A stretch of 44,281 bases of DNA from IMG/VR virus record IMGVR_UViG_3300023184_003063, positions 1 to 44,281 of that record, one strand, 5' to 3'. The notes beneath the pieces are model-generated. The model was not told the DNA's origin and did no database searches. It saw only the letters and a list, made by a program, of their open reading frames with translations. Every line of letters starts with the position of its first letter. The first letter of the stretch is position 1. The DNA is from a virus. The translations under genes were made by a program, and so were the position numbers. This document shows positions 4,247 to 40,664 of the stretch, in pieces.

Positions 4247-4773
4247 TAGATTGTTGAGTCCTCGCGATAGTCGTCCCATGATGTAAATGCATCACGGCTC
4301 ATTAGACTGTGTAGACTGTGACACCAAACACCAGGATTAGTAGCGGCAAAGTCCTTGTCATCTATTTTTAACATTGTATTATAGTTCCACACTCGTGTAT
4401 AGGGGATACTTACTCGAATTTGCGGAATAAAGTTTCTATAGTCACAAAGTGGGCCGTCATTGAATTCTTCCACGTGCGTAATTGGAATGTCTAGGCTACA
4501 CAAGTGACCATCAAGCAGGAATGGTTCAATCATACTTTCCCAGCGTTGCCAGGCCAGTCTGTTGTCAGGATGAAAACTGTGATTGGCACCAAAGAAGATA
4601 TGGTCAATGTGCTTGGTATTGTCTGTGTACGAATTGTTTTCGGCCAGCAGTCTAACAATTTCAGTTAGGGGTTGTACCCCCACAACAAACAAAGTTCTCT
4701 TGCCAAATGCAGGAGTGTGTTCTACTTCTGTGCCAATAAAAAAGTTGACATTATCGTGTTCAGGTCTGTTCAT
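4246..4773 (-). CDS. Phage hypothetical protein, 175 residues, next to the 7-deazaguanine genes
   Basis: Not assignable to a family I am sure of. Begins FFIGTEVEHTP and contains HIFFGANHSFHP, a CSLDIP strand, GPLCDYRNFIPQIRVSIP, and YNTMLKIDDKDFAATNPGVW near the C-terminus. The regular strand pattern suggests an alpha/beta or TIM-barrel-like enzyme fragment. It lies between the TGT-like gene (14-nt overlap) and the QueD-like gene, so a role in the same modification pathway is a reasonable guess. It lacks the CxxxCxxC of radical SAM QueE, so it is not a standard QueE. Confidence 0.6.
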   Translation of the reverse strand: MNRPEHDNVNFFIGTEVEHTPAFGKRTLFVVGVQPLTEIVRLLAENNSYTDNTKHIDHIFFGANHSFHPDNRLAWQRWESMIEPFLLDGHLCSLDIPITHVEEFNDGPLCDYRNFIPQIRVSIPYTRVWNYNTMLKIDDKDFAATNPGVWCHSLHSLMSRDAFTSWDDYREDSTI

Positions 4774-6325
4774 GCTCTAATTGATCTAATGCTGATATGT
4801 CTAATTGTACACTATCATCATTTGTTTGTACAGTCTCAGGTTCTTCGAATTCAAATAGCGCATTGAATTGTGTTCGGGCATTCTTGGTTTTTTTGCCTTT
4901 GAATCCTCGTGTGCCCACAATCTCCATCCAATATGTGTCGTACATTTCAATAATGGCTTCGGCAGTTTCGCGATCTGGCGCCGCAAAGATTGCTTCCACA
5001 ATGTCTTCAAACCGGGCATAGTCTCCACCTGACCTACGCATCATAGCAGGATGTTCACCCGCATCAAAACGTCGATTGGCTTCTTGTACCGCAGTCAAGT
5101 GCATCCAGACATTATGGCCCATAAGCAAAGCATATGAGAAACTATCCCAACTTGTCTTGCCTTCTTTGCCAATCTTATTTAGGTCGCCGGGTTTGTAGAT
5201 ACAAATATCTTTCATCTTGAGTAGATCACTGATAGGTGAATCTTCCCAACGTGGATAGATTCCGTCTGCTACTACGCCTGTTCCCCACTTGCGTGTGTCT
5301 GTGGAATACTTTTTATCGTCGGCTGAAGGAGCCATGCGATACGACCATTTGGAATCGTGTTCGAACACGTTTTCAAAGTAGACCTGTCCGTTTGCTGTTG
5401 CAAGGAACGGACTGGCGCAGTCAAACGAGATTGTGAAGTTTGGATTGACATATTTTCTTACGGCCCTTTGGATTACAGTTAATAAAACAGCCCACTCCAG
5501 TTTGGAGGTTCCCAAGAAGTGCATCCAATCATGTTTGCCCTCTTGAAGTAAATTGTCATAGCGTAGTGCTACCAGTCTGCGAAGTACCAAGTGTACGTCA
5601 CACATGTTTTGTCCACCCATTGACCAACCGTTGAAGTGTGTGTCTGGGTACTTGACAGGATCGCAGTATTCCTTCATGGTTTCATACCACTGGTCTGCTG
5701 ACGTATGATTGTCACCTTGCAACACGTTCAAGAACTTGGCACCACCATTTGCCACACCTTTGCGGTGTTTCATGAAGTATTCGTTGTTAAACTTGGTAGC
5801 GTCTACTGCTTCTTGCAGTGTAGTAATCTGACAAGCCGCTGACGCCTTCTTGTCGTGAATAACCCATGTGGGTATATCCAAGATCATGCCGTAGTCTGCT
5901 ACATTGTCTAGCCAGTTCAAGATTAGACTTCGTTTCTTTTGAGCCTTAGCACAACCTGAGTTGGCTTTCCAATCACCTTCCCAAAGACCCTTGGCAATCT
6001 GGAACCCTCCAGAGTCTCCCAGTATAAACGTTCCAGGCTCTCGGGACCGCACCATGTCTTCTGACCAGTCTTGTTTAGCAAGGTCAAGATTTGCATGTCC
6101 GCCTGAGTATAGACTCCACTTGTAGGGGAACAAGGCTTTGGTACTATTAAGCCAGTTAAGTTGCTCCATGTCCGTAATGCCCTGAGGAAGTCGAGCCGGA
6201 TCCACATATGGTTCATTCCTTTGTTTGCCGATAAACGTAGCATAAAACCCGCTGATGGCCGGGAGGAATACAGCGTAGTCCGACTGCTTGGCAGTCAAGT
6301 TGTCTTGCACAACAGGGTCAGTCAT
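4760..6325 (-). CDS. TGT-superfamily enzyme, probable DpdA-like DNA 7-deazaguanine transglycosylase
   Basis: 521 residues. TIM-barrel signatures of tRNA-guanine transglycosylases appear in order: GDSGGFQ at 103-109 (general-acid Asp104), LDIPTW at 149-154, NVLQGDNH at 200-207 (cf. VQGG), GWSMGGQN at 233-240 (cf. GG-AVGE), FLGTSKLEW at 270-278 (cf. LMGVGTPED) and SFDCASP at 300-306, matching the FDCVxPTR nucleophile block. The cysteine cluster of the tRNA-enzyme zinc site is not evident. Phage DpdA enzymes of this superfamily exchange guanine for a 7-deazaguanine in DNA to escape host restriction. The QueD-like gene nearby supports this. An RNA substrate cannot be excluded. Joins the clamp gene by a TAATG overlap. 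Confidence 0.72.
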   Translation of the reverse strand: MTDPVVQDNLTAKQSDYAVFLPAISGFYATFIGKQRNEPYVDPARLPQGITDMEQLNWLNSTKALFPYKWSLYSGGHANLDLAKQDWSEDMVRSREPGTFILGDSGGFQIAKGLWEGDWKANSGCAKAQKKRSLILNWLDNVADYGMILDIPTWVIHDKKASAACQITTLQEAVDATKFNNEYFMKHRKGVANGGAKFLNVLQGDNHTSADQWYETMKEYCDPVKYPDTHFNGWSMGGQNMCDVHLVLRRLVALRYDNLLQEGKHDWMHFLGTSKLEWAVLLTVIQRAVRKYVNPNFTISFDCASPFLATANGQVYFENVFEHDSKWSYRMAPSADDKKYSTDTRKWGTGVVADGIYPRWEDSPISDLLKMKDICIYKPGDLNKIGKEGKTSWDSFSYALLMGHNVWMHLTAVQEANRRFDAGEHPAMMRRSGGDYARFEDIVEAIFAAPDRETAEAIIEMYDTYWMEIVGTRGFKGKKTKNARTQFNALFEFEEPETVQTNDDSVQLDISALDQLEHEQT

Positions 6326-12279: not shown

Positions 12280-14826
12280 TTAGTGGGCCACTTGCTGGCT
12301 GTGTTCTCTACGACGTTGAGCACCGACTTGTGTCACATGCTCAAGTATCTGATTGCGCAAATCAAATGCTGATTCATTCACAGCACCATATCGGGCAAAT
12401 GTTTGATCAACAAACTGTTTGATACGTTGCACATCTTCTTTGGTCTCAACCATTTGTAACAGTTCTGCTACAGGCTGAGTCAATGCTTCTTTTATCCCGC
12501 TGAGTTGTTTCTGGATATTTGGAGGTAAATCTTTGGCAGCGATCATTGGTTTGCCGCCTAATGTTGCCGCTCCAGTTTTTTTATTATAGGTTCCAACAGT
12601 GTCTGCTGGTGCTGTTGTTGCCGCCGGTGCAGTTGGCTTAGGCAAACTAACACCAGTTTTGATATTAGGAGCATAGTTCACACTCTTGTATCCGCCGCCT
12701 TGTTGAGCAAAATTTGGCGTGGCTGGTTTGCCTGCTGTTGCGGCCCGTGCGGCTTGACGACGAGCCGCTTCTCTACGGCCAACATAGCCAGGTCCTTTCG
12801 GATCTTCTCCGGGAAACTTGCCACCGGTCGCGGCTGTTGCACCAGGCGCTGATACAGCAGAGGGTGCTGTTGCACCAGGTACTGTGTCTGTGGCAGCAGT
12901 TGGCGTCGGTGCAGGATCTGTGAAACCAAATTTAGCACGTATTTCATCACCTGTAAATGCTTTACCAGTGGCAGGGTTGATGCTGCCACTGTTGGATGTT
13001 CTTTGCGCACCACCCACCGCCGGCGCAGTAGGTTGTGCTGTGGGTTGTGCTGTTGCCTGTGAGGCCGGTGCTGTGTAAGGAATACCCATCTTGCCAAACA
13101 CACTGGTCACTACAGTCTGTGGCACACCTTGGCCAACCAACCATGCGGCCAATTGATCTGAATCACTGGGCTTGCCGGCCTGATGCCAGTTCATCTTGAG
13201 TTTTTCTTTGGTGACGTTGGTGGTAAATTGATGTCCAAAGTTGCTTAATGCGCCGCCAACTTTTTTAACACCTCGGTCCAACCAGTTGAGACCACGACCG
13301 ATCAAGCCGGGCTTGGACGGTACCCCTGCGCCACCTGACATGGCTGGAGCATATTGATCTGGCAAGTCTGGACGACCCGGTTGTGTTGCTTCAAGCAGAG
13401 CCAGGCGATATCGATCAATGTTTTCAAACACTGTGTAAGTTCCAATAGTGGTTAAATTAACACTCTTGCTCTTACGACCAACGCTTTCACTCAAGGCCCA
13501 ATTCAGCACTGTGGCTTTCTGATCAATCAATCGGTCAGCAGGCAAAATTCTTGCACGATACTTGATGGATTCTTTCACTGCATTTCTGGCAGCCATACCC
13601 TGTGTGATTGCGCTGTTGGGAACCTGTCCTTGAGCAATGTCAGCCATGGTGTTGGCATTGGTACCAACTCCACCTGCATACACATCTGCACCGGGTGTGC
13701 CAGGCGGCAATGTGATCTGTTGTCCAGGGAAGATAACGTCAGGATTTAGACCTTGCCCACCTGTGGCACCACTTGCGGCGGCCAATTGTGGATTCAATCC
13801 TTTTAGTTCAGCCACCGAGGTATTGAAACGATCGGCAATTACACTGAGTTTATCACCTGGTTGTACTGTGTATGTTGCAAGGTCTGGAGTCGGTGCAACC
13901 AATGGGCTTACGGTATCGGATCCATCAGGCATGCTCACATACTCACCAGTGTGATCGCCCATGTTGTTAACATTGGTGAATGCGTTAGTATCAGCAGGTC
14001 CTGTTTGTGTGGCACCACCGTATATGGCTTGTCCAGCCCAGGCTGTTGCGGCTGCACCGCCGGCTTTGAGTGCAATATCTGAAAACTTCTCGCCCTTGAT
14101 TGCACTATCTAAACCATAGACCAAAGCAGCCACCGCTGGCAGGCCTGCGCCGCCTGTGGCCAAGCCAGTAATACCAACCAAGGCTGCTTTGGCCAGGCCA
14201 GCGGTCTTGGGATACTGTTTTGCAAGGTTGCGATACTTGTTGATCGCAGTCATTACTGCACCTTTTTGGCCACCTGTTAGATTGGCCAGGGCGTCAGTGG
14301 CTTGGTCATATGCTACATCAACTGCGGCCACAGGTACAGAACTTTGTATACCGCTCCAGACACCTTTTAATGCACCAGCAACATCTTTGGCAAAGTCTAC
14401 TGTGACATCTTTGCCACGGCCTACAAAGGTACGGTTGGCACCTGTGGCCTTGTCGGTCATGCCTGCTTCGGCATCAGAAAAGATTTGTAAGATTTCTGGT
14501 TCAGTTAGTTTTTGTTCACTAATGTATTGACCCACACGTTTGAATCTGCGATAGATGGGATCTTCCATGAGCCGGGCTTCGTTTACCGGTTTCTTCTTGG
14601 CGTGGTATTCATCTTGCGCTTTTTTAACACGTGCCTGGTCGGCACGGATTCTACGTTGGTCTGGATCCATGAAGTCAGGATCATCAGGATGACGTCTTGG
14701 AGTATTGCTACCCTGTGGTCTTGGCCGGCGTGGTGCGTCACCTGGGCGGTCATAGTCAATACCCGGCAAGTCATATGGACCGTTTTCTTTGAGAGGCTTG
14801 GGATTAAATAATTGGTCTACTATCAT
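12280..14826 (-). CDS. Large LysM-domain phage protein, 848 residues, possible virion or internal protein
   Basis: Residues 1-80 are basic and proline-rich. Residues 88-110 (MEDPIYRRFKRVGQYI) share the DPIYR motif with the start of the neighbouring 270-residue protein. Residues about 205-275 are Ala/Gly-rich and hydrophobic, possibly membrane-active. A LysM domain (YTVQPGDKLSVIADRF to FPGQQITLP) lies at 318-374 and should bind peptidoglycan. The next 350 residues are low-complexity Pro/Ala/Thr. The C-terminus (ETKEDVQRIKQFVDQTF, ending in a basic HSQQVAH) looks like a conserved module. The TAATATG junction couples it to the gene upstream. LysM plus a membrane-active segment suggests a role at infection or in the virion wall passage; that is inference. 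Confidence 0.65.
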   Translation of the reverse strand: MIVDQLFNPKPLKENGPYDLPGIDYDRPGDAPRRPRPQGSNTPRRHPDDPDFMDPDQRRIRADQARVKKAQDEYHAKKKPVNEARLMEDPIYRRFKRVGQYISEQKLTEPEILQIFSDAEAGMTDKATGANRTFVGRGKDVTVDFAKDVAGALKGVWSGIQSSVPVAAVDVAYDQATDALANLTGGQKGAVMTAINKYRNLAKQYPKTAGLAKAALVGITGLATGGAGLPAVAALVYGLDSAIKGEKFSDIALKAGGAAATAWAGQAIYGGATQTGPADTNAFTNVNNMGDHTGEYVSMPDGSDTVSPLVAPTPDLATYTVQPGDKLSVIADRFNTSVAELKGLNPQLAAASGATGGQGLNPDVIFPGQQITLPPGTPGADVYAGGVGTNANTMADIAQGQVPNSAITQGMAARNAVKESIKYRARILPADRLIDQKATVLNWALSESVGRKSKSVNLTTIGTYTVFENIDRYRLALLEATQPGRPDLPDQYAPAMSGGAGVPSKPGLIGRGLNWLDRGVKKVGGALSNFGHQFTTNVTKEKLKMNWHQAGKPSDSDQLAAWLVGQGVPQTVVTSVFGKMGIPYTAPASQATAQPTAQPTAPAVGGAQRTSNSGSINPATGKAFTGDEIRAKFGFTDPAPTPTAATDTVPGATAPSAVSAPGATAATGGKFPGEDPKGPGYVGRREAARRQAARAATAGKPATPNFAQQGGGYKSVNYAPNIKTGVSLPKPTAPAATTAPADTVGTYNKKTGAATLGGKPMIAAKDLPPNIQKQLSGIKEALTQPVAELLQMVETKEDVQRIKQFVDQTFARYGAVNESAFDLRNQILEHVTQVGAQRRREHSQQVAH

Positions 14827-14827
14827 A

Positions 14828-15640
14828 TTATCGTTCTTCTATGTAATCTTGAGACAAGTCCTGTTTCTGTCTGCGCTTTTGAAACAGTCGCACTGCCATG
14901 TCAGCATGGTCAATGCGGGGAAAACGTGTGGGTAAACTGCGCTCGCCATGACGAACTTCGTAACCTGACTCATCGTCGCCCCAGCACTCTAAACTGGTAC
15001 CGTCTTCTAGGGTGTATGTTCTTACAGGTGCTTCACTCATGGGTGCCGCAGGTTCGGCAACATCGGCTGCTATGTGATCTTCAACACCGTGTGCTACTTC
15101 TGTATCAGCAGGATCACCAATGGGTTGTACATCTTGATCCCATGTGGCATTTTCATCAACTTCGTCGCTGTCATCATCACTATCCAAGTCGTCACTAGCA
15201 TCACTGCCAAATTCTTCTTCACTGTCGGCAGCATCTTCTTCATCTTGCTCATCAACTTCGCCATCATCGCCAATTTCAAGATCGTGCTTGGCTTTTTTAA
15301 CTAAATGACTGTCAAGATGATTTTGTTTTTCTAACTTCTCAAGATAGTCAGCAAACTGATGCTTGACTCGGCTGATCATGTCTTCTTCAACTTCTTGCAT
15401 GGCTTCTTCAAGACTTGGCTTGCGAGGTTCTACTGAGTCTCCTACCATGTATCCATCTGCAGGATGTTTCTGATAGGGCTTCTTGGTCAATGTGGTACTG
15501 ATATCTGTTGGCTTGAACAAGGCCGGCAACTGTGGCACACCTTTTTGTTGTTGATTCAAGCCGTGCCGGACTGAGACTGGGGTAGTCTTACCCTCAATCA
15601 AGGCCAGGCGCTCGATTATACGATAGATTGGATCCGTCAT
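14828..15640 (-). CDS. Acidic phage protein of unknown function, 270 residues
   Basis: No enzymatic family recognised. Begins MTDPIYRIIERLALIEGK, a conserved-looking start shared in part with residue 88 onward of the next gene's product, then HGLNQQQKGVPQLPALFKP. Residues about 125-215 are extremely Asp/Glu-rich, like scaffolding or nucleic-acid mimics. The C-terminus returns to a folded look: YTLEDGTSLECWGDDESGYEVRHG and DMAVRLFQKRRQKQDLSQDYIEE. Between Dps and the LysM protein, coupled to both by overlaps, so it is probably part of the same virion-protein operon. Confidence 0.6.
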   Translation of the reverse strand: MTDPIYRIIERLALIEGKTTPVSVRHGLNQQQKGVPQLPALFKPTDISTTLTKKPYQKHPADGYMVGDSVEPRKPSLEEAMQEVEEDMISRVKHQFADYLEKLEKQNHLDSHLVKKAKHDLEIGDDGEVDEQDEEDAADSEEEFGSDASDDLDSDDDSDEVDENATWDQDVQPIGDPADTEVAHGVEDHIAADVAEPAAPMSEAPVRTYTLEDGTSLECWGDDESGYEVRHGERSLPTRFPRIDHADMAVRLFQKRRQKQDLSQDYIEER

Positions 15641-16080
15641 GCTCGCTCATCTTTCAAGAAACTTCTCAGCATCCACGCATGCTTCTGCTGAGCATCAATG
15701 CGTTCTGCTATAAAATTTGCAATGCCTTGCTGGTTTTCTTGTTCAGCCGTGGCAAATGTTTTGTTGAGTAGATCAAGCAGTTGGTTGTTGTTGGCCAACA
15801 GTTCTTCAATCATGAGACGGGCACGTGGGATCTTGGTTTGTCCTTTAATAATGCTTAGTTCACTAAAACGTTCAAAACTACCAGGGGCATAGTCGCCCAG
15901 CGCACGTATGTATTCTGCTGTTTTGTCTATACTGTTGTTGTAGACTTCTTCGTATAAGTTGCCAAAAAACTCGTGCAGTTGTGCAAAGTCAGGACCTTCC
16001 ACATTCCAATGGAACAGTTGTGCCTTGATACTGAAAGCGTATTCAGTTGCTAATAGAATTTTTAAACTGTCCGCGAGCAT
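15637..16080 (-). CDS. dps: Dps-family ferritin-like protein
   Basis: 147 residues, a little shorter than bacterial Dps (about 160) mainly at the N-terminus. The four-helix pattern and the Dps signature KAQLFHWNVEG (H24) are clear, followed by H36 twelve residues later and D52/E56 on the next helix, the pattern of the inter-subunit ferroxidase site. D and E are one residue further along than in E. coli Dps. Dps oxidises and stores iron and protects DNA in a 12-subunit shell. The N-terminal DNA-binding tail is absent. The gene overlaps the end of the 72-residue gene by 38 nt. Whether it is made in the cell or packed in the virion is open. Confidence 0.82.
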   Translation of the reverse strand: MLADSLKILLATEYAFSIKAQLFHWNVEGPDFAQLHEFFGNLYEEVYNNSIDKTAEYIRALGDYAPGSFERFSELSIIKGQTKIPRARLMIEELLANNNQLLDLLNKTFATAEQENQQGIANFIAERIDAQQKHAWMLRSFLKDERA

Positions 16081-16810: not shown

Positions 16811-17274
16811 CTTATTCGGTATAGTAAATAAACTGTTGTATTGGCCATGTCACTGCGATCCAATCTATAACCCCAGGCCTGAGCATAGCGTTGTACCAGG
16901 CGATCATACAGATTGCTTCGGCTCATGGCTTTCTGTCCGGGCTCAACATCTTTGTCGGCTGTGAAACGCAGAGTTTCAGGCTGTTCCATTTCTATGAATT
17001 GACCAATTGCGGTCAACACTGTGGCAAACACACGCTGAGCATCACCGGCTCCGGAAATGTCCAAACGATTCCCACGCCAAAATTCCACAATCCAATCTTC
17101 GTTGTCGGCCACATCAGAGTCAGTGTAGAAATTGATTGTGAGATTGGTGCCATCCGGCAGTCTTGCTAACGCATCATATCGAGGATCAAGATCAGGATCG
17201 AGGTCGTCATTGTTTTCCCATCTAAACGCATAGGGTTGGTCAAATGCTTCTAAGATAATATCTGTAACTCTCAT
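16807..17274 (-). CDS. Protein with capsid-targeting-like N-terminus, 155 residues
   Basis: I start it at the ATG 17272-17274, which makes an ATGA overlap with the deaminase fusion gene; the open frame extends a further 27 nt upstream. The N-terminus MRVTDIILE|AFDQ matches the shared peptide with a head-protease-type site after Glu9. The rest is a single alpha/beta domain with strands such as NLTINFYTD and WIVEFWRG and a C-terminal helix NLYDRLVQRYAQAWGY. Enzymatic function not recognised; predicted to be packed in the head with its neighbours. Confidence 0.65.
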   Translation of the reverse strand: MRVTDIILEAFDQPYAFRWENNDDLDPDLDPRYDALARLPDGTNLTINFYTDSDVADNEDWIVEFWRGNRLDISGAGDAQRVFATVLTAIGQFIEMEQPETLRFTADKDVEPGQKAMSRSNLYDRLVQRYAQAWGYRLDRSDMANTTVYLLYRIR

Positions 17275-18611
17275 TTTTTGCCACCCTTCATGTTGGCACA
17301 CCAGTGATACATTTTGCCACGCTCGCCGCCGTACTTACGGGCCTTGGCACGTAGGCTTGTTACACTTCCGTCACAACTGGCACCTGCACGTTTCACACGC
17401 CCAGGGCGACTCTTGCCTTTGACTCGGCCATCAGCAAAATTCTCTGCCATGTCTTGCTTGTTGGACCAAAGCAATTGCCCTTCTTCTTGTGCTATACGGT
17501 GTATGTTAGTTCCTGACTTAGTGGGCTGTATGTCATAATTGTCAAAAATAGAGGAAAGTTTTTGAAGTGTTCTTACCACTGCAAGATACTGATTGCCCAC
17601 AAGGTCATCGGGCACAACTACCAAGATATCAGTATCGCTGTTTCTGCGATGCTTTCCTGTAGCACGACTGCCATGGAACCATATTTCTTGTGCTATAGGC
17701 AATACTTTTTGTATGGCATCAGTCACTGACTTTCCTGGTTGTTTGCCTTCTGCCACATCCGGCTTGACAGGCACCAGAGCAGGCACATTGGTCAGTCCTG
17801 CTTCCACAGCGGCCATGGCACGATGGTTGCCATCAATGATCCAACCTGAAGGATCAACCACAATGGGCATACGTTTTAATACTGCTTCAATTTGTGGTAT
17901 CAATTCTTGAACTTTGTCATTGTCCACCCAGTTCACACGATTGTAAGGATCCGGTTCTTCGCCATCAGGGTCCAAGTTCAGTTGTGATAGCGGAATAGTT
18001 TTTAATTCCCACTTGGGATGATCAGTTATGCTGTATTCAATGTCAAACGCTTCTGGAGCATGAGCACGTTTGACATAGTCAAGCACTTGGTCAGCATCCA
18101 GGTGTTGATGCTCACTCTCGGTCAAGTCATCATGTACAAAACTATCACTAAATTCTTTGCATCTTCTCCACAGGTCATCATTTTGGGTGGTTTCTTCGGT
18201 GAACGGGTGTTCACTGTGTTGTGAGGGATCCATGTAGCCTGAATAGACTTTTTCAATGCCGGCCTGCAACAACAGGTCTTGACAACTGGGACCATCACGT
18301 TCCTCCATATCCCTATTGCAAGGACTCAGGGTTGTGACAATGATAGCACCAGGCAGGATCTTGCCATAGCGTTTGTGATAGGCGTCTATGGCCACACGCT
18401 CTGCGTGGCGACGTGTACCGTTGGGCCCGGGTAAGTTGATGCCGAACACCTTGCGGTTTTTCATGTCAATGATACAGGCAGCCACCCGGCCGTATTTTTT
18501 GGGATTGGCGTGATTTTTTTCATGTATTAATTCAATACAACGTGCCAGCACCTGATCCAGTCGATCTTGGTTGTGTATTTCCTGGGATTCAAATAGGTCT
18601 GTTAGGATCAT
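17271..18611 (-). CDS. Deaminase / ParB-like / nucleotidyltransferase fusion with capsid-targeting-like N-terminus
   Basis: 446 residues from the ATG at 18609-18611 (a GTG three codons earlier is possible). Order of parts: MILTDLFE|SQE, a capsid-targeting-like peptide; a zinc deaminase of the cytidine/dCMP type, with HAE at 69-71, PC at 97-98 and C110; a ParB-like nuclease-fold domain with DGNHR at 260-264; a Pol-beta-type nucleotidyltransferase with GS at 314-315 and the Asp pair D326/D328 (SDTDILVVV); and a basic C-terminus with KGKSRPGRVKRAG and YHWCANMK. Each catalytic signature is complete by eye. The combination recalls toxin-like effectors. Head packaging and delivery into the cell are inferred. 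Confidence 0.75.
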   Translation of the reverse strand: MILTDLFESQEIHNQDRLDQVLARCIELIHEKNHANPKKYGRVAACIIDMKNRKVFGINLPGPNGTRRHAERVAIDAYHKRYGKILPGAIIVTTLSPCNRDMEERDGPSCQDLLLQAGIEKVYSGYMDPSQHSEHPFTEETTQNDDLWRRCKEFSDSFVHDDLTESEHQHLDADQVLDYVKRAHAPEAFDIEYSITDHPKWELKTIPLSQLNLDPDGEEPDPYNRVNWVDNDKVQELIPQIEAVLKRMPIVVDPSGWIIDGNHRAMAAVEAGLTNVPALVPVKPDVAEGKQPGKSVTDAIQKVLPIAQEIWFHGSRATGKHRRNSDTDILVVVPDDLVGNQYLAVVRTLQKLSSIFDNYDIQPTKSGTNIHRIAQEEGQLLWSNKQDMAENFADGRVKGKSRPGRVKRAGASCDGSVTSLRAKARKYGGERGKMYHWCANMKGGKK

Positions 18612-18612
18612 A

Positions 18613-21600
18613 TCATGCACCGGTCCACTTGGCCATTAGTAGGGCGTCAGAATCATAGCCATACAGTTTGCTTAATGCATTGCGAACCGCCGGTTGCAGA
18701 CTACCCTTGCCAGGCACAACATCAAACAGCCAATACGTGCTGTTGTTGTCTTTATGATAAAACTGCCCGCCCAGTTCCATGATCTGGTCCATGGTTCGAT
18801 CAGCGTATTTTCGCCATTGCGGCGAGACTGTGGCAGTTCGTTCCAGGTCAAAGATTTGGTTGGGGATTCGCACCAGGCCCTCGACTTCAACTCCGGGTAT
18901 GGAGGCCAGGCTCATCCAGTTTCGTCGACCTCCGGGTGTTTGTGATGACCCGCTCACAAGATTCTTTTGCATGATGGTCAACACAATGCCGTACAGGGCT
19001 CGGGCCAGGCCACGGCCACGATAGTCTTCGTCCACTGTGATCGATCCCACCTGCACCGTGTTGGGCAAACTGCTTGAGTCTAGGTTCAGCACAGCCACAA
19101 CTTGGGGGCGGGTAATGCCTGGCATGCCTGGATCCACAATCTGCACAATAGTACCATAGAAATGTGTCCCTTTTACAATTGCATACTGTAGATCAGTGCC
19201 GCCGGGCAAAGGCTTTAGATTTTTTTTTGCCGGCTTTTGATACATACCCAGCATGTCCTTACCGCCTGCGAACTGATGGGCCGGCATGGCTGCAATTTCG
19301 CTTAAAGCGTCTTCCGCCACGCCTTGAGTTAAGGATTCCGTCATGACCGGTACCACTTCTATTTCTCTAAAGTCGGAATCTGGAGCATTCTGTTGCAACC
19401 ATGTGTAGGCTATTCTGTTGGCATCTGCTTGACTGTTACCTACACCACGGAATCTCCACAATTCAGTGCCAGTATCGCCATCCAAGATGCGCCACTGTCC
19501 CGAGAACTGACCGCCAAAGTTCTGTGCTACATCGGGTGCTATATCAACTATGCCACCCTGCTGTTGATCTGCTGTGGTGTTGGTGCCGAACAGGTCTCTA
19601 AATGAGTAATCCGTGTTGCGGCCATCAGTTCTGTCTTGTGGGAAGTTCTGTGCCGAGGCTGGCGCAGGCTGCAGGCTCAACATGTCAGCACGAACACCGT
19701 TTCTACGGGCTGTGTCCTGTAGTACGGCCACGGCCTGATCGCGGCTGGCGCCACTCACAGTGTTGAGCGTTTCTCCAGTGGCACTGTAGACTATGCGCCA
19801 GTTGCTATTGGATCGATTGGATCGAATCTCTTGGAATCCATAGTCTTCGGTGGTTTGGGGCAGGCCTGCGGCTGCCAGCCAAAGACCATATATTCTGTTG
19901 GCCTGGTCTCTATCCACTGCACGGAATCTAAACACAGGATCAAGAGTTTGGCGATCCACAACTGCATAGTTGGCGTCCTCTGATTGACTGGGCATACCCA
20001 AGCGGTTTTCCATGTCGGTTTGTGTGCCTATGTTGGCCCCACTAAGTGTGCCTCTGGTTCTCACGCCATAATTGTCGTGCTGTCCAGCGGCAATACTTCC
20101 CATGGCCATGCGTTGTGCTTGAGCACGATCAGTTATGGGTTGGCCGTCTACACTGAGGTTAGCAGCCGAGTTACCAGTCGCTCTGTTGTAGATTTCCCAA
20201 GGTCCAGGACCGGTGGGTCGCAGACTGTTAGACAGGGTACCTTGATCAGCACCGGAGTCTGCCACAGGCCTAACACCAAACGCAAAACTAGCGTCTATAG
20301 GGCTCATGCCATGCTGACCATGATCAATGTAGTCTTGTAATCTGGTAGCCAAATCTGAATTGTTGCGACTAGAGAATTCAGTGTCGGGCACAGCGTCGCC
20401 AGTTTGTTTGTTATATAATTCGTAGGTTCCGCTGCCAGGTTTGTCTTCGTAGGGCCGTAACACTTCAGCATCCATTCGAGCCAGAGTGTTGACCAAGAGT
20501 GGTTCGCCCCACTCCTTAGCAGCCTTTTCAATTGCTTCCTTTTCGCTTGTGGCAACCACTTCCACTGTAGAACCGTATCGGCCAGCATTCTTGCCGTCTT
20601 TATAGACCTTCCACCACATCTTTTGATCACCAGTCTTGCCACGCTTGATATTGCGTTGTAGTTGTGCTTGTTTGATAAAACTACGCAGTGCGGCTTTGGG
20701 AATCTTGCCGGCCACATAGTCACTGAAGTATTTGATGGTGTCAACATCTTTGTTGTTTTCACTCAACAACTTGTACAACTTGGTCAAGTACTCTTGACGA
20801 TACATTTCGGGGTTCAAGGCCGCACTCATGGCCACGGTAAATCTCAACAGGGTATTTTCAATCTGATCAAAGTTTTGATCCAGCCAGTCACCGCCCGGTG
20901 AGCGGAATTCAATATGTCCGTCCTTGGTGTTGATACTTGTGTACTTGCTGGTGATACCTGAGTGTATGGCTTTGGTAGCCAACTGATCCAAGTTGCCCTT
21001 CATCTTGTCCAGCAAGGCTGCGGCACCTTCAGGATTGTCACGCACATGACGTTTCACAATGTCCAAGGCTGACTTGGCATAGGTATTACCGCTTCGACCA
21101 AAGGCGTCTAACACGTACTTGTCGCCCATTAATAATGCCAACTTAACAAAGTCCAGATTTTCTCTGCTGTAGTTGGGCACTGAGATGTTGATGTGCAGGC
21201 CTGTGGAATCATTGGTGTAGCAACCATATTCCTTGGCCCAGGCCTTGACCTTGTTCAGGTCCGAAAGTATTTCATCAATGGGCAAGGGTGGGCTCACAAA
21301 CTCCAGGCCTTGATCGTTGGGATCATCTGGCTCCAGGCTGCCGTCAGGTTCCACAACATAGCGTATTTGAGTTGGACTGGGACGGAGCACACTACCTGAG
21401 TGATAGTTGCCACTGGCTCTGACATCGCGACCTATGGCATTTTCAAATTCCTGTGCTACATCTTCAATGCTGGCTTCGCCACCACTCTGGGGGTCGCTCC
21501 AGTGTGGCCAACTCATGCTGTAGGCATTTTCAATTTCGCTCATGTTACTTAGGTCTGCATCATCCAACCAGTCGCTTTCGTCATAACTTTCTTGATTTTC

Positions 21601-23703
21601 TTCGCGGAACTCTTCGTAGGCTGATTGATATTGATCACTAACAGGATCTGCATGAACATTGGCAGCATATTCTTCCAGGGCTTCTGTACGTTCCAAATCA
21701 GATTTGTCCTCTGGATTCCACTCTGACTCGTCTACGTTTTCTTTAACCCATTGATATACGTATTCTTCGCCCCCACTGTCCCAGTCGCTGGCAATCTTTT
21801 CGTCCAACCATTCCGTATAGTCGTCTCGCATGCTGTCACGCATCTCGTCGCAACTGCGTCGGCTATTCCAGTCACCATCATAGAAAAAGTCATATGCGTC
21901 CTGTATGCTACGGCAACGTTGGTCGTAGTCATAGTCAGGCTCCTGGTCGGCGTCACCGCTGCCGCCTTCCACATTGGGCACAATCATTTCAAATTCCATG
22001 CCGGCAATGGCACCTGTCTTGGCAGCCTCTCGACGTAGGTTCTTGCTTCCCATGTTGATTTCAAATAGGTCTTGAGACTCAAACAAGGCAAACTCTGCGG
22101 CCAGGCTTTCTTGCAGGTTGGCCGACTTCATTAACAGTGCCGGCTCGCCGTTCTTGCCTGTGTGCAAGGCCAGTTTGTTGGCTTCCTTGCCCACTTGCCC
22201 TGGCTTGATATCCACAGTCAATGCCATGCTATATCTTGGATCACGAGCCTGTGCTTTTGTGGGAATATATCCGGACGCTGATTCTTTGATAGAATTTTGT
22301 TGGAAATATTCTGGATGACTGTTAGCAAAGTCACGCATGATGATACCGGCCACAGCATTTGCTTCGTTCTCCCATGAACTGCCAGTGTCGCCTGCATTGT
22401 CAGGCAAGGGTGCTGATTCGTGTTGGGCACAATGACACAGTTCATGTGCTGTGGTACGCAATACGTCCAACAGGTGTCTATCACCTAGACTTACGTGTAG
22501 TTTGTGCTGGTCGGGCACATACATGCCAAACGAATGATTCGACTCTGACCAGTCCGGGTCATGATGTATGATGATTTCAGGTATGTGTCGGATACCTAGA
22601 CGCTCGGCGGTGTGTTGGATAAACTCTTGTACCACTGACTCTGTGTCAACTTCGGTCAAGAACATGGCGGTGGTAGGATTCACACCATCAGGAGATTCGT
22701 CTGTAGGCTGTTCCAGGAACATCTTGGTGGTGGGATCCACACCATCAGGGCTTTCACTGACACCTGCAGGCCATGGTCTAGGCTTGGTGTGTACCAGTTC
22801 CTTGGCAATTTCTTGTTGGCGGGCCTTAAGTTTTTCAGCCTGTATATACTCGTCACGACTGCGATAGACTTTTTCTTTGTCAGGTTCTACTAGTGGTTTG
22901 AGTTCGTTTTGGAATGCAGCTCGCATGTCAGCCAGGCTGGCTTCATCAACTTCACCGTTGCCAAAGCCATAATGCACACGTTGCTTTGGACGAGCCAGTT
23001 CAGCCAGACTGAGTTCACGATCTCTTGCTTGATTCAAGGCGGTTTTTAGTTTTTGTATACAGCCATTGTTACGCAACAATTTGAACGTGATGTTTTCACA
23101 ACCAAACTCGCCATGCTGTTCCAGACCTGACTGGCGCATGCTCCGGATCTTTTGCCACAAACTACTGATGGCCTCTGCGTTGCCCGATTTGATGGCTCGG
23201 TGAATTCTGGCATCTAGATCACTGGTTTTGTCACGCACACAGGCATCGTCAATTCTAGCACGTTTGCGTTGCGGTACTTGAATCCAGTCATTGTTTTTGA
23301 TGGAGTAGATACCTTGACTGTGATGCGCTTGATCTGCAGGTTGCACATACAGTTCCACATCAGCGCCACCGATCTTTATGTTGTGAGTGTCATTGAATTC
23401 GTATTTTTTGGCATTGAACAGTTCTTGATAAACTGGATCCGGTGGCATGTTGACCACCAGGTGCAGATCAATGTCACTGTGCCGGGTATAGGAGTAGGCA
23501 GCATTTGACCCGGATATGGTGATGTCTTGCACATCTAGATCGGGCACCCCCAAAAACTCCTGAAAGTATTCGGCTATTTCAAGTAGTCGGCTTTGCACCT
23601 CGGGTCGCAGATGCTCTTCAGAACCCCAAATTCGAGGGTTCAAACGATTGTGAAACTTTACAGCATCAGCAAGATTATAAGAGTCCAGTTCTAGTATATT
23701 CAT
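18613..23703 (-). CDS. 1696-residue multidomain protein: nucleotidyltransferase, metallopeptidase, amidoligase-like, tandem repeats, GNAT
   Basis: Domains in order: a Pol-beta-type nucleotidyltransferase (GS at 65-66, D77 and D79); two copies of an ESPDGV-x-PTT motif at 317-349; a zinc peptidase with HELCH at 420-424 and a likely third ligand E447 in ENEANAVAG; an acidic insert at 580-750; an amidoligase-like domain with GMEFEM near 568, GLEFVSPPL at 799, STGLHINI at 833 and HIEFRSPGG at 930; six related repeats of 40-50 residues between 1029 and 1451; and a GNAT acetyltransferase with YRGRGLARALYG at 1561-1572. LxE triplets, the core of head-protease sites, occur near 541-548 and 1467 between domains. 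The N-terminus MNILE|LDS is a weak capsid-targeting match. Likely a virion or injected protein; substrate unknown. Confidence 0.78.
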   Translation of the reverse strand: MNILELDSYNLADAVKFHNRLNPRIWGSEEHLRPEVQSRLLEIAEYFQEFLGVPDLDVQDITISGSNAAYSYTRHSDIDLHLVVNMPPDPVYQELFNAKKYEFNDTHNIKIGGADVELYVQPADQAHHSQGIYSIKNNDWIQVPQRKRARIDDACVRDKTSDLDARIHRAIKSGNAEAISSLWQKIRSMRQSGLEQHGEFGCENITFKLLRNNGCIQKLKTALNQARDRELSLAELARPKQRVHYGFGNGEVDEASLADMRAAFQNELKPLVEPDKEKVYRSRDEYIQAEKLKARQQEIAKELVHTKPRPWPAGVSESPDGVDPTTKMFLEQPTDESPDGVNPTTAMFLTEVDTESVVQEFIQHTAERLGIRHIPEIIIHHDPDWSESNHSFGMYVPDQHKLHVSLGDRHLLDVLRTTAHELCHCAQHESAPLPDNAGDTGSSWENEANAVAGIIMRDFANSHPEYFQQNSIKESASGYIPTKAQARDPRYSMALTVDIKPGQVGKEANKLALHTGKNGEPALLMKSANLQESLAAEFALFESQDLFEINMGSKNLRREAAKTGAIAGMEFEMIVPNVEGGSGDADQEPDYDYDQRCRSIQDAYDFFYDGDWNSRRSCDEMRDSMRDDYTEWLDEKIASDWDSGGEEYVYQWVKENVDESEWNPEDKSDLERTEALEEYAANVHADPVSDQYQSAYEEFREENQESYDESDWLDDADLSNMSEIENAYSMSWPHWSDPQSGGEASIEDVAQEFENAIGRDVRASGNYHSGSVLRPSPTQIRYVVEPDGSLEPDDPNDQGLEFVSPPLPIDEILSDLNKVKAWAKEYGCYTNDSTGLHINISVPNYSRENLDFVKLALLMGDKYVLDAFGRSGNTYAKSALDIVKRHVRDNPEGAAALLDKMKGNLDQLATKAIHSGITSKYTSINTKDGHIEFRSPGGDWLDQNFDQIENTLLRFTVAMSAALNPEMYRQEYLTKLYKLLSENNKDVDTIKYFSDYVAGKIPKAALRSFIKQAQLQRNIKRGKTGDQKMWWKVYKDGKNAGRYGSTVEVVATSEKEAIEKAAKEWGEPLLVNTLARMDAEVLRPYEDKPGSGTYELYNKQTGDAVPDTEFSSRNNSDLATRLQDYIDHGQHGMSPIDASFAFGVRPVADSGADQGTLSNSLRPTGPGPWEIYNRATGNSAANLSVDGQPITDRAQAQRMAMGSIAAGQHDNYGVRTRGTLSGANIGTQTDMENRLGMPSQSEDANYAVVDRQTLDPVFRFRAVDRDQANRIYGLWLAAAGLPQTTEDYGFQEIRSNRSNSNWRIVYSATGETLNTVSGASRDQAVAVLQDTARRNGVRADMLSLQPAPASAQNFPQDRTDGRNTDYSFRDLFGTNTTADQQQGGIVDIAPDVAQNFGGQFSGQWRILDGDTGTELWRFRGVGNSQADANRIAYTWLQQNAPDSDFREIEVVPVMTESLTQGVAEDALSEIAAMPAHQFAGGKDMLGMYQKPAKKNLKPLPGGTDLQYAIVKGTHFYGTIVQIVDPGMPGITRPQVVAVLNLDSSSLPNTVQVGSITVDEDYRGRGLARALYGIVLTIMQKNLVSGSSQTPGGRRNWMSLASIPGVEVEGLVRIPNQIFDLERTATVSPQWRKYADRTMDQIMELGGQFYHKDNNSTYWLFDVVPGKGSLQPAVRNALSKLYGYDSDALLMAKWTGA

Positions 23704-24722: not shown

Positions 24723-25301
24723 TTATTTTCGGCCAATCGTCATGAAACGTGTGTACGCAGTTTCAGGGTCTTGCAATGCCATGCCGCCCGAATACAGCAC
24801 TTGACTCAGGGGGAATTTGCGTTCAATATCCTTGGCACCGCGGAACTGCTGATCTGGATTGTGATCACGGGCTTGAAGTACTACCAGTGTGCCAGCGGGA
24901 ATGTGTTCAAACCAGGCAGTACTGGGCATTTCAGTCAGGCTGGTATTGACCACTGCACCTGCACTGTCCAACAGTTGATAGTTCAGTTCGTTGGCGTCTT
25001 TCAGCATGTGTTCAACATTGCCAGCACCCATTTGATCCAGTATGCGTTTGCCGGTGTTGAGTCGTTCGGGATCGGTTTCCACGTTGATGATGCGATCTAC
25101 CTGCACCCGGGGATAACGACGCAAGTACATGGCAAGATTTCCATACCAGGAACCCAGTATGTACATTGTGCTGATGTGTGGCTGTATTTGTGCCAGTTCG
25201 TGCATGAGCCAGAATTTGCTGAACACAAGATCTCTAGTGAAACTGCCGTCGAGGCCGGAGCCTGAACTTTCTTCAAGACTGGCAACTTCACAGATCAGCA
25301 T
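24723..25301 (-). CDS. Methyltransferase-like protein, 192 residues
   Basis: The start is the ATG 25299-25301, coupled by TAATG to the gene upstream; the open frame runs further upstream but only through the neighbour. Residues 46-55 (YILGSWYGNL) look like a glycine-rich SAM loop of form GxWxGN, followed by NVETDPERL, an acidic strand end, and VVNTSLTEM. The fold is a Rossmann methyltransferase by pattern. The substrate is unknown; in this spot it may act on a glycan or on the product of the nucleotidyltransferase before it. Confidence 0.6.
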   Translation of the reverse strand: MLICEVASLEESSGSGLDGSFTRDLVFSKFWLMHELAQIQPHISTMYILGSWYGNLAMYLRRYPRVQVDRIINVETDPERLNTGKRILDQMGAGNVEHMLKDANELNYQLLDSAGAVVNTSLTEMPSTAWFEHIPAGTLVVLQARDHNPDQQFRGAKDIERKFPLSQVLYSGGMALQDPETAYTRFMTIGRK

Positions 25302-26221
25302 TATGATCGCTTTTCTGCCATGTAGTCTTCGGCCACAGGTTGATTTTCTCGTTGTTGATATCCTGCCCACATGCCACCTATGGCAGGAGTTCCGGCAGTT
25401 TGTCCATTGTTTTCCAGTGTGGCCGCAAAGCCTTGATTTTCGTCCATTGGATCTGCTTCTTGCCATTCAAAACTTTCAACAGGCACTTGATATTTGTCAC
25501 TGAGTTTTTCAAGCAAACGATCCAATGCACTAGCAGGAATATTGCGGGCGACCACTCTGCGACCACGACTGTTCTGTACCGGGCGATAAAACATATCAAT
25601 CATTTGAGGATTAATGTCTTTGCCTTCATCAAGTTCTGTGCCAATGGCGGTGTCCAACATCTTGACCACGTTGGCAACCAACTTGGGATTCTTTTGTGTT
25701 TTAGGGTACAGACTCATTACTAGAGCAGTCTTACGCTTGGGATTCAGTGTAGGCCAGGCTGTGCGAATTTCTGTGGCACTTGTCATGCCAGGGCCAAACT
25801 CCACAGTAGGCAAGTAGGCCATGTAAGCACGTTTTGAAAATGGTTCTAGTTTTGTAGCACCCAAGAGTGGTTGTAGGTATGCAGGATTGCCATCTTTCTT
25901 TACACCGCCCGCTTGTGGTGGTTTGTCAGCGTCTTTTTCTGACCGCACAAAAATCAAATGATCCTTTTCGGGATCAAATCTACTGGTGATTTCTTTTGCT
26001 TGAAAAGGTGATTTGACTTGTACAAAGTGGCCGGCATCTACCCCGGCCAGTTTGGCCAGTTTTTCTTTCACAGCAAAAGGAAAAGGTCTTGAACTTGTGT
26101 CGTTTGTGGCCGCAACAAACACATCAGCGTCGGGAAATGCTCGTTTTGCGCTGTTGTACAGGGCCGCATGGCCTGCGTGGAAAGGGTGGAATCCACCCGG
26201 CATGATAACGATCGTACTCAT
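25301..26221 (-). CDS. HIGH-motif nucleotidyltransferase with C-terminal extension
   Basis: 306 residues. Residues 1-160 form a nucleotidyltransferase of the NMNAT/PPAT/cytidylyltransferase superfamily: GGFHPFHAGHAALY, with HxGH at 15-18, and TSATEIR at 147-153. It would activate a phosphorylated small molecule (possibly NMN, pantetheine-phosphate or glycerol-phosphate) with ATP or CTP. The rest is helical, contains IPASALDRLLEKLSDKYQVPV, and ends in the Glu-rich PVAEDYMAEKRS with head-protease-like triplets. The start lies 7 nt after a CTAAATA box, inside a small palindrome, with no Shine-Dalgarno. Confidence 0.7.
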   Translation of the reverse strand: MSTIVIMPGGFHPFHAGHAALYNSAKRAFPDADVFVAATNDTSSRPFPFAVKEKLAKLAGVDAGHFVQVKSPFQAKEITSRFDPEKDHLIFVRSEKDADKPPQAGGVKKDGNPAYLQPLLGATKLEPFSKRAYMAYLPTVEFGPGMTSATEIRTAWPTLNPKRKTALVMSLYPKTQKNPKLVANVVKMLDTAIGTELDEGKDINPQMIDMFYRPVQNSRGRRVVARNIPASALDRLLEKLSDKYQVPVESFEWQEADPMDENQGFAATLENNGQTAGTPAIGGMWAGYQQRENQPVAEDYMAEKRS

Positions 26222-34689: not shown

Positions 34690-35415
34690 TCAGCAGTTCC
34701 AACGTCTACGTGCTTTGCAAATGGCCTTGTCTGGAGTCTTGCTACAACTAATACTGTGCATTTTCATTTGTCCACGGCTGCGTGAGCAATAGCTCTTGCG
34801 ACGCTTGGAGGCCTTGCTTCCTTTTTTAAGTTTGCCGGGCTTGGTAGTCACAGCAGTCTTCAGTTTAGATCCTGGATGCTCTCTGCGATACGCATTCACA
34901 GCCTTTTGACTCATGCCGTCTGTTCGATCTTTCTTGTTGGCTTTCTGCCAGTCTTCGTTCAGTTGTGAAGTCACAGCAAACGCATACAGTTCATCTTCAC
35001 TCAATGATTCTAGGTCCGTCCATACCGCTTCGGCATCTACACCATTTTGTGCGGCAATACCTTCGATGATGTTTTCTATTAGATCAAACTCTTCGTTTAA
35101 TTCAGCACTTTCATTGGGCACACAGTTGCGTACCTGTCCGCCATTCTTGCCCTTCTTAGTACCTTCAGCATGTTTGCCAGGCCAGCAACGGGTATAACCG
35201 TTTGAATCTTTTTGACCTTTCCGAATCTCCATGACATTGCCGTGTGTTTCGCACATGCCACAGTCTTCGCAGACCATTTCCATTTCAACTGATTCGTTGT
35301 GTTTTTTCTTGCCGGCACAATGTGCTCGTTGACTAAACCCTTTGGGGTGAGAGCAGTTGATACTGCTCTTGTACTTTTGACTCCACTTTTCAGTGACAAA
35401 TTCACGTGCTTTCAT
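34690..35415 (-). CDS. Basic Cys-rich protein with capsid-targeting-like N-terminus, 241 residues
   Basis: N-terminus MKAREFVTE|KWSQ, almost the T4 internal-protein signal. Then KSSINCSHPKGFSQRAHCAGKKKH and a Cys cluster VCEDCGMC (possible zinc site), an acidic helical middle at 105-155 flanked by LNE at 106-108 and 152-154 (head-protease-type), and a very basic C-terminus (GSKASKRRKSYCSRSRG, ICKARRRWNC). The basic tail suggests binding to packaged DNA. Preceded by an in-frame TAA joined to its ATG. Confidence 0.65.
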   Translation of the reverse strand: MKAREFVTEKWSQKYKSSINCSHPKGFSQRAHCAGKKKHNESVEMEMVCEDCGMCETHGNVMEIRKGQKDSNGYTRCWPGKHAEGTKKGKNGGQVRNCVPNESAELNEEFDLIENIIEGIAAQNGVDAEAVWTDLESLSEDELYAFAVTSQLNEDWQKANKKDRTDGMSQKAVNAYRREHPGSKLKTAVTTKPGKLKKGSKASKRRKSYCSRSRGQMKMHSISCSKTPDKAICKARRRWNC

Positions 35416-39091: not shown

Positions 39092-39708
39092 ATTACTGTT
39101 ACCCTTACATCACTTTGTCCGTAATTTTGACGGTATGGCTCAGGTGGAGGTTCAATACCCAGTATACTGGCCAGGCCAAGATTGTCAATGGCAGTGGAAC
39201 CTGAATACTTGAGCCGAGCCGCGATAATGCCCTGATTCTGTTGCTTGATAATACCAGCCATGGTCTTTAAATCTTTGTAGTATTCTGCATAGTCAGGATA
39301 TGTGATGTCAAAGTGTCCACACTTGACCCACCATCCTAAACAAGCATCATCATCACGATGTACCAGCACAATGGGTGAATCGGGCCAGGTTTGCTTGATA
39401 TAATCTATATGGTCAGCAAACACATGCGATTTAATGATACGCACACCTGAGCCCGAAAATGGCGCATCAAATTCGGCTTCACACTGATAATAATCAAATT
39501 CATTTAGTCTATGAAAAAATCTGCCAAATTCCATTCCGGGATCAAAGTACGCACCCAGGTGCATGAGTTCGCTTTGGCCCGACGCATCATGATAGTAGGT
39601 GCGTGAGTCTGAATAGTCACTGCGATCTACTGACGGTGAATAATAGATATTTTTAACCACACTTGACCATTTAGAACCCGGTGCACCGGCTACAAATATG
39701 TATTTCAT
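39088..39708 (-). CDS. Sulfotransferase-like protein
   Basis: 206 residues, with the start chosen at the ATG 39706-39708 (ATGA with the upstream gene). The 5'-phosphosulfate loop is FVAGAPGSKWSS (residues 5-16), the IIKSH block is at 91-95, and IVLVHRDDDACLGWW at 113-127 takes the place of the PAPS 3'-phosphate motif (Arg118; the usual Ser is replaced by Cys). The fold is that of PAPS-dependent sulfotransferases, shorter than most. The target could be a glycan, protein or small molecule. A source of PAPS may be provided by the kinase fusion two genes on. Confidence 0.65.
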   Translation of the reverse strand: MKYIFVAGAPGSKWSSVVKNIYYSPSVDRSDYSDSRTYYHDASGQSELMHLGAYFDPGMEFGRFFHRLNEFDYYQCEAEFDAPFSGSGVRIIKSHVFADHIDYIKQTWPDSPIVLVHRDDDACLGWWVKCGHFDITYPDYAEYYKDLKTMAGIIKQQNQGIIAARLKYSGSTAIDNLGLASILGIEPPPEPYRQNYGQSDVRVTVI

Positions 39709-40664
39709 TCTGGCCTGATCTTTCTGGCAATGGGCTGCCAAGTCTGTTGCAATCGTGCCATGGCAGCACGTACTCCTGCTGGGGAGTGTTCTTCGGGCGT
39801 GATGTACATCATGTTTTCACGAAACTTTTGACCAGCCTCGGCTGAGCGCAGGGCAGGTACAAATTGATTGTGATACCATGTTTGTATGTCTTGTGAGGTG
39901 CCGGGTGGCAACACCATGTTCCAACAGCCGTGTATACTGAGTCCCGGAGCGGCTCGGCTCATCAACGGCGCAGATTCTAGGCCTGACAAAGGTCTAATAT
40001 CAGCAATGCCAATTAGTTTTAGTTTGCCTGTCAGCACATGCGGATAGCCCACGGCCACAGGAGTTACTCCAAACTCCACATGGCCTCCCATCACATCCAA
40101 GAGTGCCTGTGCTGGACCTTTGTACATGACAGTTTCCACTCGATCGCCACCAGGCACATTTAGTTTGTCCACCAGATATTCCACTGCCAATCGATGCCCG
40201 CCGCCGCCAATGGCCACAGAGATAGGTCTTTCTTTCTTTTTGATGGCCGCAACCAATTCTTCAGGTGTGTTGATTTTGCTGCCAGGATGAGCCCAGAATG
40301 CCAGGGGACTGCGGGCAATATTGGCAATGGGTTCCAGATCCATGGGATTGTACTTGACCATCTTGGCGTACCAAATTTCAGGGGTGACCCAGTTGGACTG
40401 GCAAGCAGGTACACTTATGGTGTGGCCATCTGCAGGCACTGTGACAAAATGATTGAGAGCAATGTTGCCATCTGCACCGGGGCGATATTCGGGCACAAAC
40501 TTTGTGCCAGTCTGACGTTCCACAATCTCTGCCACAATGCGGAATGATATTTCATTTCCGGCTCCGGGACCATTGGGAAATATAACAGTGACAGGTCGAG
40601 TGGGTTGCCAGGCCACGGCTGTGCTAGCCAACAACATCAAGACTAGAAATTTTAGTGTACGCAT
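39705..40664 (-). CDS. Tripartite tricarboxylate transporter-type periplasmic binding protein (Bug/TctC family)
   Basis: 319 residues. Signal peptide of 18 residues (cut after AVA), then the Bug-family body: RPVTVIFPNGPGAGNEISFRI, a GADGNIALNHF block (the loop that binds carboxylates), LDVMGGHVEFGVTPVA, LTGKLKLIGIA. In bacteria it catches carboxylates in the periplasm for a TctAB membrane unit, which is absent here. The AAAGGAG site 5 nt before ATG is strong, and TATAAT lies upstream. The first gene of the sulfation operon; unusual cargo for a phage. Confidence 0.8.
   Translation of the reverse strand: MRTLKFLVLMLLASTAVAWQPTRPVTVIFPNGPGAGNEISFRIVAEIVERQTGTKFVPEYRPGADGNIALNHFVTVPADGHTISVPACQSNWVTPEIWYAKMVKYNPMDLEPIANIARSPLAFWAHPGSKINTPEELVAAIKKKERPISVAIGGGGHRLAVEYLVDKLNVPGGDRVETVMYKGPAQALLDVMGGHVEFGVTPVAVGYPHVLTGKLKLIGIADIRPLSGLESAPLMSRAAPGLSIHGCWNMVLPPGTSQDIQTWYHNQFVPALRSAEAGQKFRENMMYITPEEHSPAGVRAAMARLQQTWQPIARKIRPE

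Follow-up and report, generated by a model that had tools for sequence, protein, structure and literature searches.

The virus record IMGVR_UViG_3300023184_003063 of IMG/VR (44,281 nucleotides, all of it analysed and termed the window here) encodes a 1696-residue protein in which a nucleotidyltransferase (NTase), an HExxH peptidase, an amidoligase, a set of repeats and a GNAT acetyltransferase are predicted, with catalytic residues intact. Comparison with related sequences leads us to give a probability of about 60% to the reading that this is a capsid-targeted ejection polyprotein of a T4-type myovirus of freshwater bacteria, which would be cut by the prohead protease into enzymes acting on the host. 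The borders between its modules carry, at conserved positions, L/I-x-E triplets of the prohead-protease type, and we infer that cleavage occurs there. The reading frame, which a preliminary description made from the window sequence had reported without naming a strand, is uninterrupted from its ATG, and the opposite strand is full of stop codons across the same interval. An identical stretch is found on a second IMG/VR contig (L001).

Conserved triplets at module borders

In T4, gp21 cuts after L/I-x-E, and the Alt protein is cut at both ends, at ITE-6 and LTE-619 (PMC9026906, PMC5694885). To collect relatives, IMG/VR was scanned with the whole protein and then with its separate domains; 80 of 170 candidate amidoligase stretches and 80 of 127 candidate peptidase stretches were analysed, and relatives were counted as distinct sequences, not as clustered species. 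For the border test, triplets in nonredundant border segments were compared to those in 1000 composition shuffles made within each segment.

All 71 of the sequences compared have [LI]xE directly before the amidoligase. L occupies position –3 in 69 of them and I in the other 2, E is invariant at position –1, and position –2 varies freely (among others F, D, G, T, S and E; 2.1 bits). A hydrophobic-x-E triplet precedes the peptidase in 47 of 56 segments, compared to 22.9 in the shuffles, and the stretch that we call the SGYIP segment in 51 of 60, compared to 21.6. The corresponding figures are 16/17 before the GNAT domain and 12/13 (nonredundant) at the tail junctions. At each of these five borders, the observed count lay above all 1000 shuffles. 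Three unrelated domain types thus have this pre-domain motif in common, both in fused proteins and in stand-alone tagged genes. One caveat here is that the sequences are related, and hence the border counts do not represent independent events. More weight attaches to the variability of the middle residue and to the return of the motif before unrelated domains.

Tails added at the C-terminus carry a site of their own, with a small residue immediately after it (GLAE-S, GVAE-G, SIAE-G, SLTE-S). Stand-alone modules combine an N-terminal tag with the same border (MRFKEF..LLDE-VVMSP, MRANEFLTE-IERLS), and isolated phages do likewise, with MNYKQFLRE-S in gp332 of Synechococcus phage B23 and ..KKLTE-LKMNS in Atu_ph07. 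Some SGYIP borders read LKE-NASG.

It had been suggested earlier, from LxE triplets between the domains of this one protein, that it is processed into separate enzymes. The window protein contains 32 hydrophobic-x-E triplets, close to the background rate of the family (1.8% per position), with a weak enrichment in its unstructured parts (p ~0.03). LxE density was rejected as evidence of processing, the count being at background. The triplets derive their significance from conservation at the borders across relatives, not from the window sequence alone. The argument from one sequence was not significant alone; the proposal itself gained strong comparative support from border conservation, from a gp21-type protease in relatives and from tagged single genes.

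Prohead protease and capsid protein in relatives

Both near-complete relatives tested (G001, 200 kb; G002, 178 kb) have genes for a gp23-type capsid protein and for an S77 prohead protease that scores above the Pfam cut-off. Their capsid protein shares ∼65% identity with its counterparts in Vibrio phage 2.275.O and in Pseudomonas jumbo phages such as PA5oct, and reads YLKE-NASAG near the position at which T4 gp23 is cut.

No perfect T4-type late promoter was found in the window, and the weak variants seen before some genes prove nothing for the large gene. As a separate observation, the orthologous gene MAEEQKPMSESEKKKEDW is preceded, at a distance of ∼25 bases, by AATAAATA both in the window (32365, –) and in G001 (156576, –). 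Octamers similar to AATAAATA stand before structural genes in G001, and the element may be a T4-type late promoter.

Short tags at gene starts

Gene starts near these loci often follow the pattern M-[KRNIS]-x(1-3)-[DEQ]-[LIFV]. It was found at 252 of 924 nonredundant starts, compared to 36 on average and at most 50 in shuffles, an observed figure that is biased towards the clusters of putative cargo genes because the starts were taken near these loci. Examples include MRANEFVTE, MKITDILNE and MILTDLFE. Over the whole genomes of G001 and G002, a narrow version of the pattern was not significant; the tag is concentrated in the cargo clusters. The T4 ipI record starts with MKTFKEF. In T4 IPIII, the ten N-terminal residues are sufficient as a capsid-targeting signal, which gp21 cleaves off (PMC9026906). 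The start of the window protein, MNILELDSY, fits the general tag class and has low pLDDT (predicted local distance difference test) in the model.

Predicted domains and catalytic residues

Sequence search against solved structures gave no confident match for any domain, and fold comparison was therefore used. AlphaFold2 models were made of residues 1–545 (with 47 relatives) and of residues 540–1461, and were compared to known structures with Foldseek. The comparisons used entire multi-domain models, which kept TM-scores low; the fold assignments are therefore based on probability and on consistency with sequence evidence. The model of residues 1–545 contains two well-folded domains, ∼10–237 and 351–468, with disordered linkers between.

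The first of these is a predicted NTase of the Pol-beta class, with the hG[GS] and Dx[DE] motifs and a third acid on a Pol-beta fold. The residues concerned (G65, S66, D77, D79 and E117) are invariant in the 47 aligned relatives. Foldseek returned the Pol-beta nucleotidyltransferases CdnE (E 6e-4), AadA and the MNT antitoxin. The Pfam profile NTP_transf_2 matches the window protein weakly, below threshold, and 45 of 47 family members match it. The second domain has the sequence H420-E-L-C-H424 and a downstream glutamate, E445, which are predicted to include the zinc ligands; H420, E421, H424 and E445 are invariant in the same alignment. With HExxH, the downstream glutamate and a zincin fold in the model, it can be classed as a putative peptidase of the gluzincin type, and its Foldseek matches are IrrE and the minimal gluzincins selecase and jannalysin.

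For the amidoligase, Amidoligase_2 (PF12224) scores 28.1 bits in the window protein, compared to a Pfam gathering threshold of 22, and 53 of 56 members match (best E 3e-12). Foldseek of the model of residues 540–1461 placed glutamine synthetase at the top (E 2.6e-3, probability 0.99), along with YbdK and glutamate-cysteine ligase, as an amidoligase fold would lead one to expect. GNAT (PF00583) falls just below the cut-off when the whole protein is searched and scores 21.1 bits with the tail alone, compared to a threshold of 20.7. Motif A is present as RGRGLA, and relatives of the GNAT tail reach E 6e-13. Searches of the large protein against NCBIfam gave no match, and PADLOC gave no defence-system match.

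These results bear out most of the preliminary description, which had named a nucleotidyltransferase (GS, D77, D79), a HELCH metallopeptidase, an amidoligase-like domain and a GNAT acetyltransferase, and had judged their signatures to look intact. It had also proposed structure prediction as a check, and the folds obtained for the first three domains agree with its calls. Its six tandem repeats are borne out as six predicted beta-beta-alpha-beta units, of which five (residues 1090–1455) are mutually homologous by profile comparison, and the first (1027–1087) is related to them only weakly.

Domain order and exchange of modules

Scanning IMG/VR with the whole protein yielded 11 loci. Uncultivated viruses supplied at least 65 distinct complete proteins with the order NTase–peptidase–SGYIP–amidoligase. 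Among 50,697 records of isolated phages, no match covered 80% of the protein, and single modules alone were found. The earlier statement that no described phage protein is known to have this order thus holds for these isolated-phage records, although the core order is common in uncultivated viruses.

The majority of relatives end just after the last repeat, at the motif EVxPVM. Beyond this point, the C-terminal tail is exchangeable. The window protein has GNAT, the closest relatives of which lie inside other polyproteins (L198, L199) or stand alone. In L004 (5514–6362, +), a predicted ADP-ribosyltransferase takes its place (PF03496, ADPrib_exo_Tox, E 5e-16), for which the virus scan returned no further relatives. 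Cytidine deaminase forms the tail in L055, L064, L097 and L071 (in L064 by sequence similarity to L055), LysM plus a lytic transglycosylase in L170, and ParB-like domains in L039 and L083. The deaminase that is fused in L055 and L064 is a separate tagged neighbour gene in the window.

Other modules also occur alone. Stand-alone forms of the peptidase (B23 gp332) and of the NTase are found in Synechococcus phage B23 and in cyanophages, respectively, and the peptidase nearly always adjoins the NTase in fused forms. The amidoligase exists as a gene of its own as well; 31 open reading frames (ORFs) were counted without the NTase, which is an upper limit because some have their start called inside the amidoligase domain. 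Its nearest relative from an isolated phage is the stand-alone amidoligase of Atu_ph07 (AUZ94978.1), which adjoins the portal gene. Bacterial genomes scanned with the amidoligase gave a single match, on a 4.8 kb contig of a metagenome bin, and hence nothing points to a cellular origin.

Proposed pathway and alternatives

Packaging, cleavage, ejection and all enzyme activities of the large protein are predictions from sequence. In the pathway that we propose, contacts with the core, together with the short N-terminal tag, would bring the polyprotein into the prohead. The phage's gp21-type protease would then cut after hydrophobic-x-E at the module borders, as their conservation suggests, to give the NTase, the peptidase, the amidoligase plus repeats, and GNAT. 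These pieces may enter the host together with the DNA and modify host proteins during the first minutes. Nucleotide transfer would fall to the NTase, acetylation of amines to GNAT and amide-bond formation to the amidoligase; the peptidase might cut a host target or help in processing. The contrast in the models between linkers of low pLDDT and well-folded domains is in keeping with such an ejection polyprotein. More tentatively, and at rather less than even odds, a module and its upstream L-x-E site could form a portable cassette for host-takeover cargo, which may stand alone as one tagged gene or be added to an expanding polyprotein, with the head protease yielding a mixture of injected enzymes that includes an amide-forming ligase for a host target.

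Several observations weigh against the ejection polyprotein. The protease gene was not found in the 44 kb window; the window is a fragment without head genes, which lie outside a record of this size. No T4-type late promoter was found directly upstream of the large gene. MNILEL is the weakest tag of the set, and several relatives lack LxE at positions 3–5 (MNIEQL, MNFHDL). At the amidoligase border, the residues at +2 (M) and +7 (L) are likewise fixed, so the L, E, I and M around it could partly reflect a structural constraint. Finally, the stand-alone NTases of cyanophages DSL-LC02 and S-CRM01 lie among replication genes, not head genes.

One alternative is that the protein is packaged and injected uncut, as a polyvalent protein, and that its own HExxH peptidase frees the parts in the host or attacks a host target. 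Iyer et al. (2017) propose this for polyvalent proteins that contain zincins, and N4 vRNAP is packaged uncut (PMC5512222); the intact peptidase residues and the near-constant pairing of peptidase and NTase in fused forms would fit as well. The gp21-type border motif, however, is also found in front of amidoligase and GNAT modules that stand alone, on proteins lacking a peptidase, and we regard uncut injection as unlikely.

A second alternative, which we judge quite improbable, is an unpackaged early or middle enzyme that acts inside the cell, with tags and LxE triplets that are ordinary flexible acidic linkers. It draws on the cyanophage NTases just mentioned, on the proximity of the window gene cluster to DNA polymerase and Clp/DnaJ genes, and on the background-level LxE count in the window sequence alone. 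Set against this, the border motif exceeds what composition shuffles give, and the gene-start tags are about seven times commoner than expected and resemble that of T4 ipI. A structural head or tail component with inactive enzyme-like domains, to which the repeats, the many linkers and the portal-adjacent amidoligase gene might point, is very hard to reconcile with catalytic residues that are invariant across ∼50 diverse sequences and with tails swapped between unrelated enzymes.

Relation to known systems

Polyvalent proteins are already known as a kind. Like them, the window protein carries at least two disparate predicted activities on one polypeptide, and its domains occur in variable architectures. 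Several unrelated enzyme domains per phage polypeptide, including zincin peptidase, Pol-beta NTase and GNAT, as well as variable architectures, are described for polyvalent proteins, and injection is proposed for them (PMC5512222). The present family differs in that it belongs to T4-type phages, has gp21-type border triplets and has modules that are also tagged single genes. T4 Alt and IPI–IPIII have L/I-x-E sites at which they are cut, and the window protein has such triplets too; their short N-terminal tag has a candidate counterpart in MNILELDSY. Alt is cut at both ends, and host-modifying enzymes are injected in T4. T4 packs single-enzyme proteins, whereas here at least four predicted enzyme modules lie on one chain, with sites between them.

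As regards the amidoligase, Pfam and fold matches (glutamine synthetases, YbdK) ally it with the Amidoligase_2 family of glutamine-synthetase-like COOH–NH2 ligases. It departs from usual members in the long helical insert that follows its first strand and in its fusion to a peptidase and an NTase. The Atu_ph07 amidoligase and B23 gp332 are direct relatives of single modules and have N-terminal tags, but are single-module genes of isolated phages, with no fusion. In the literature searched, which covers part of the field, we found neither the combination of head-protease-type borders with tagged single-module counterparts nor a description of an amidoligase as a host-takeover enzyme.

If correct, the ejection polyprotein would join polyvalent injected proteins with the short-tag capsid targeting of T4, and would provide a mechanism for packing a multi-enzyme chain and then releasing it as separate enzymes, so that one gene delivers a host-modifying kit. 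The tag and border rules would allow predictions for hundreds of unannotated genes of uncultivated T4-type viruses, and the amidoligase would be nominated as a host-takeover enzyme.

Features of the large gene and its downstream neighbour (window coordinates)
Feature	Residues	Coordinates	Strand	Basis
Whole ORF, predicted multi-enzyme protein	1–1696	18613..23703	–	Reading frame and relatives
N-terminal tag MNILELDSY, candidate T4-like capsid-targeting tag	1–9	23677..23703	–	Low pLDDT; tag class enriched at gene starts of these loci
Predicted Pol-beta-type nucleotidyltransferase	10–247	22963..23676	–	phrog_36119 E 1e-42; NTP_transf_2 in relatives; Foldseek
Disordered linker, doubled motif SPDGVxPTTxMFL..E	248–356	22636..22962	–	pLDDT ∼40 over 305–350; alignment; partly missing in relatives
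Candidate cleavage triplet LTE, just before peptidase	349–351	22651..22659	–	Border conservation compared to shuffles
Predicted HExxH...E metallopeptidase	357–468	22300..22635	–	Invariant residues; Foldseek
Candidate cleavage triplet IKE, before SGYIP segment	472–474	22282..22290	–	Border conservation compared to shuffles
SGYIP segment	474–523	22135..22284	–	Sequence conserved among relatives; no confident fold
Candidate cleavage triplet LFE, directly before amidoligase	546–548	22060..22068	–	[LI]xE in 71/71 sequences
Predicted glutamine-synthetase-like amidoligase	549–1022	20638..22059	–	PF12224; Foldseek
Repeat unit 1 (WWKV)	1027–1087	20443..20625	–	Beta-beta-alpha-beta in model; weak profile similarity to other units
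Repeat units 2–6	1090–1455	19339..20436	–	hhalign probability 68–98% between units; alignment
Tail linker TESLTQGVAEDALSE, candidate cuts VAE-1464 and LSE-1469		19297..19338	–	Tail-junction conservation
Predicted GNAT acetyltransferase tail	1470–1696	18616..19296	–	PF00583 21.1 bits
Next gene, second predicted multi-enzyme protein, starts MILTDLFES		17271..18611	–	Cytidine deaminase, weak ParB, Pol-beta NTase

Neighbouring genes

The gene that follows (17271–18611, –) combines a cytidine/dCMP deaminase with a weak ParB_N match and a Pol-beta NTase. Longer versions occur in L004 and L007, and different genes take its place in L002 and L009. Also in the tagged cargo cluster is a Dps/ferritin-like gene (15637–16080, –; PF00210, E 1e-24), found at the same place in several relatives. 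An 848-residue tagged protein (12280–14826, –) begins MIVDQLFNPKPLKEN, has a LysM domain and glycine-rich regions, and may be packaged too. Another tagged protein (34690–35415, –; MKAREFVTEKW) ends in DUF6321 (PF19846), which is a basic C-terminal segment in several phage protein families.

Upstream of the large gene, a CTP_transf_like (HIGH-type) gene (24723–26221, –) overlaps the next ORF by ∼165 bases; L003 has a longer single version of 400 residues. The window also encodes a TctC-type periplasmic solute receptor (39705–40664, –; PF03401, E 8e-21) with a signal-like N-terminus. This receptor family is best known from Burkholderiales and may hint at the host of the virus. A 521-residue protein (4760–6325, –) without a Pfam match contains the motif DSGGFQ, which we take to recall tRNA-guanine transglycosylases or DpdA (7-deazaguanine DNA modification).
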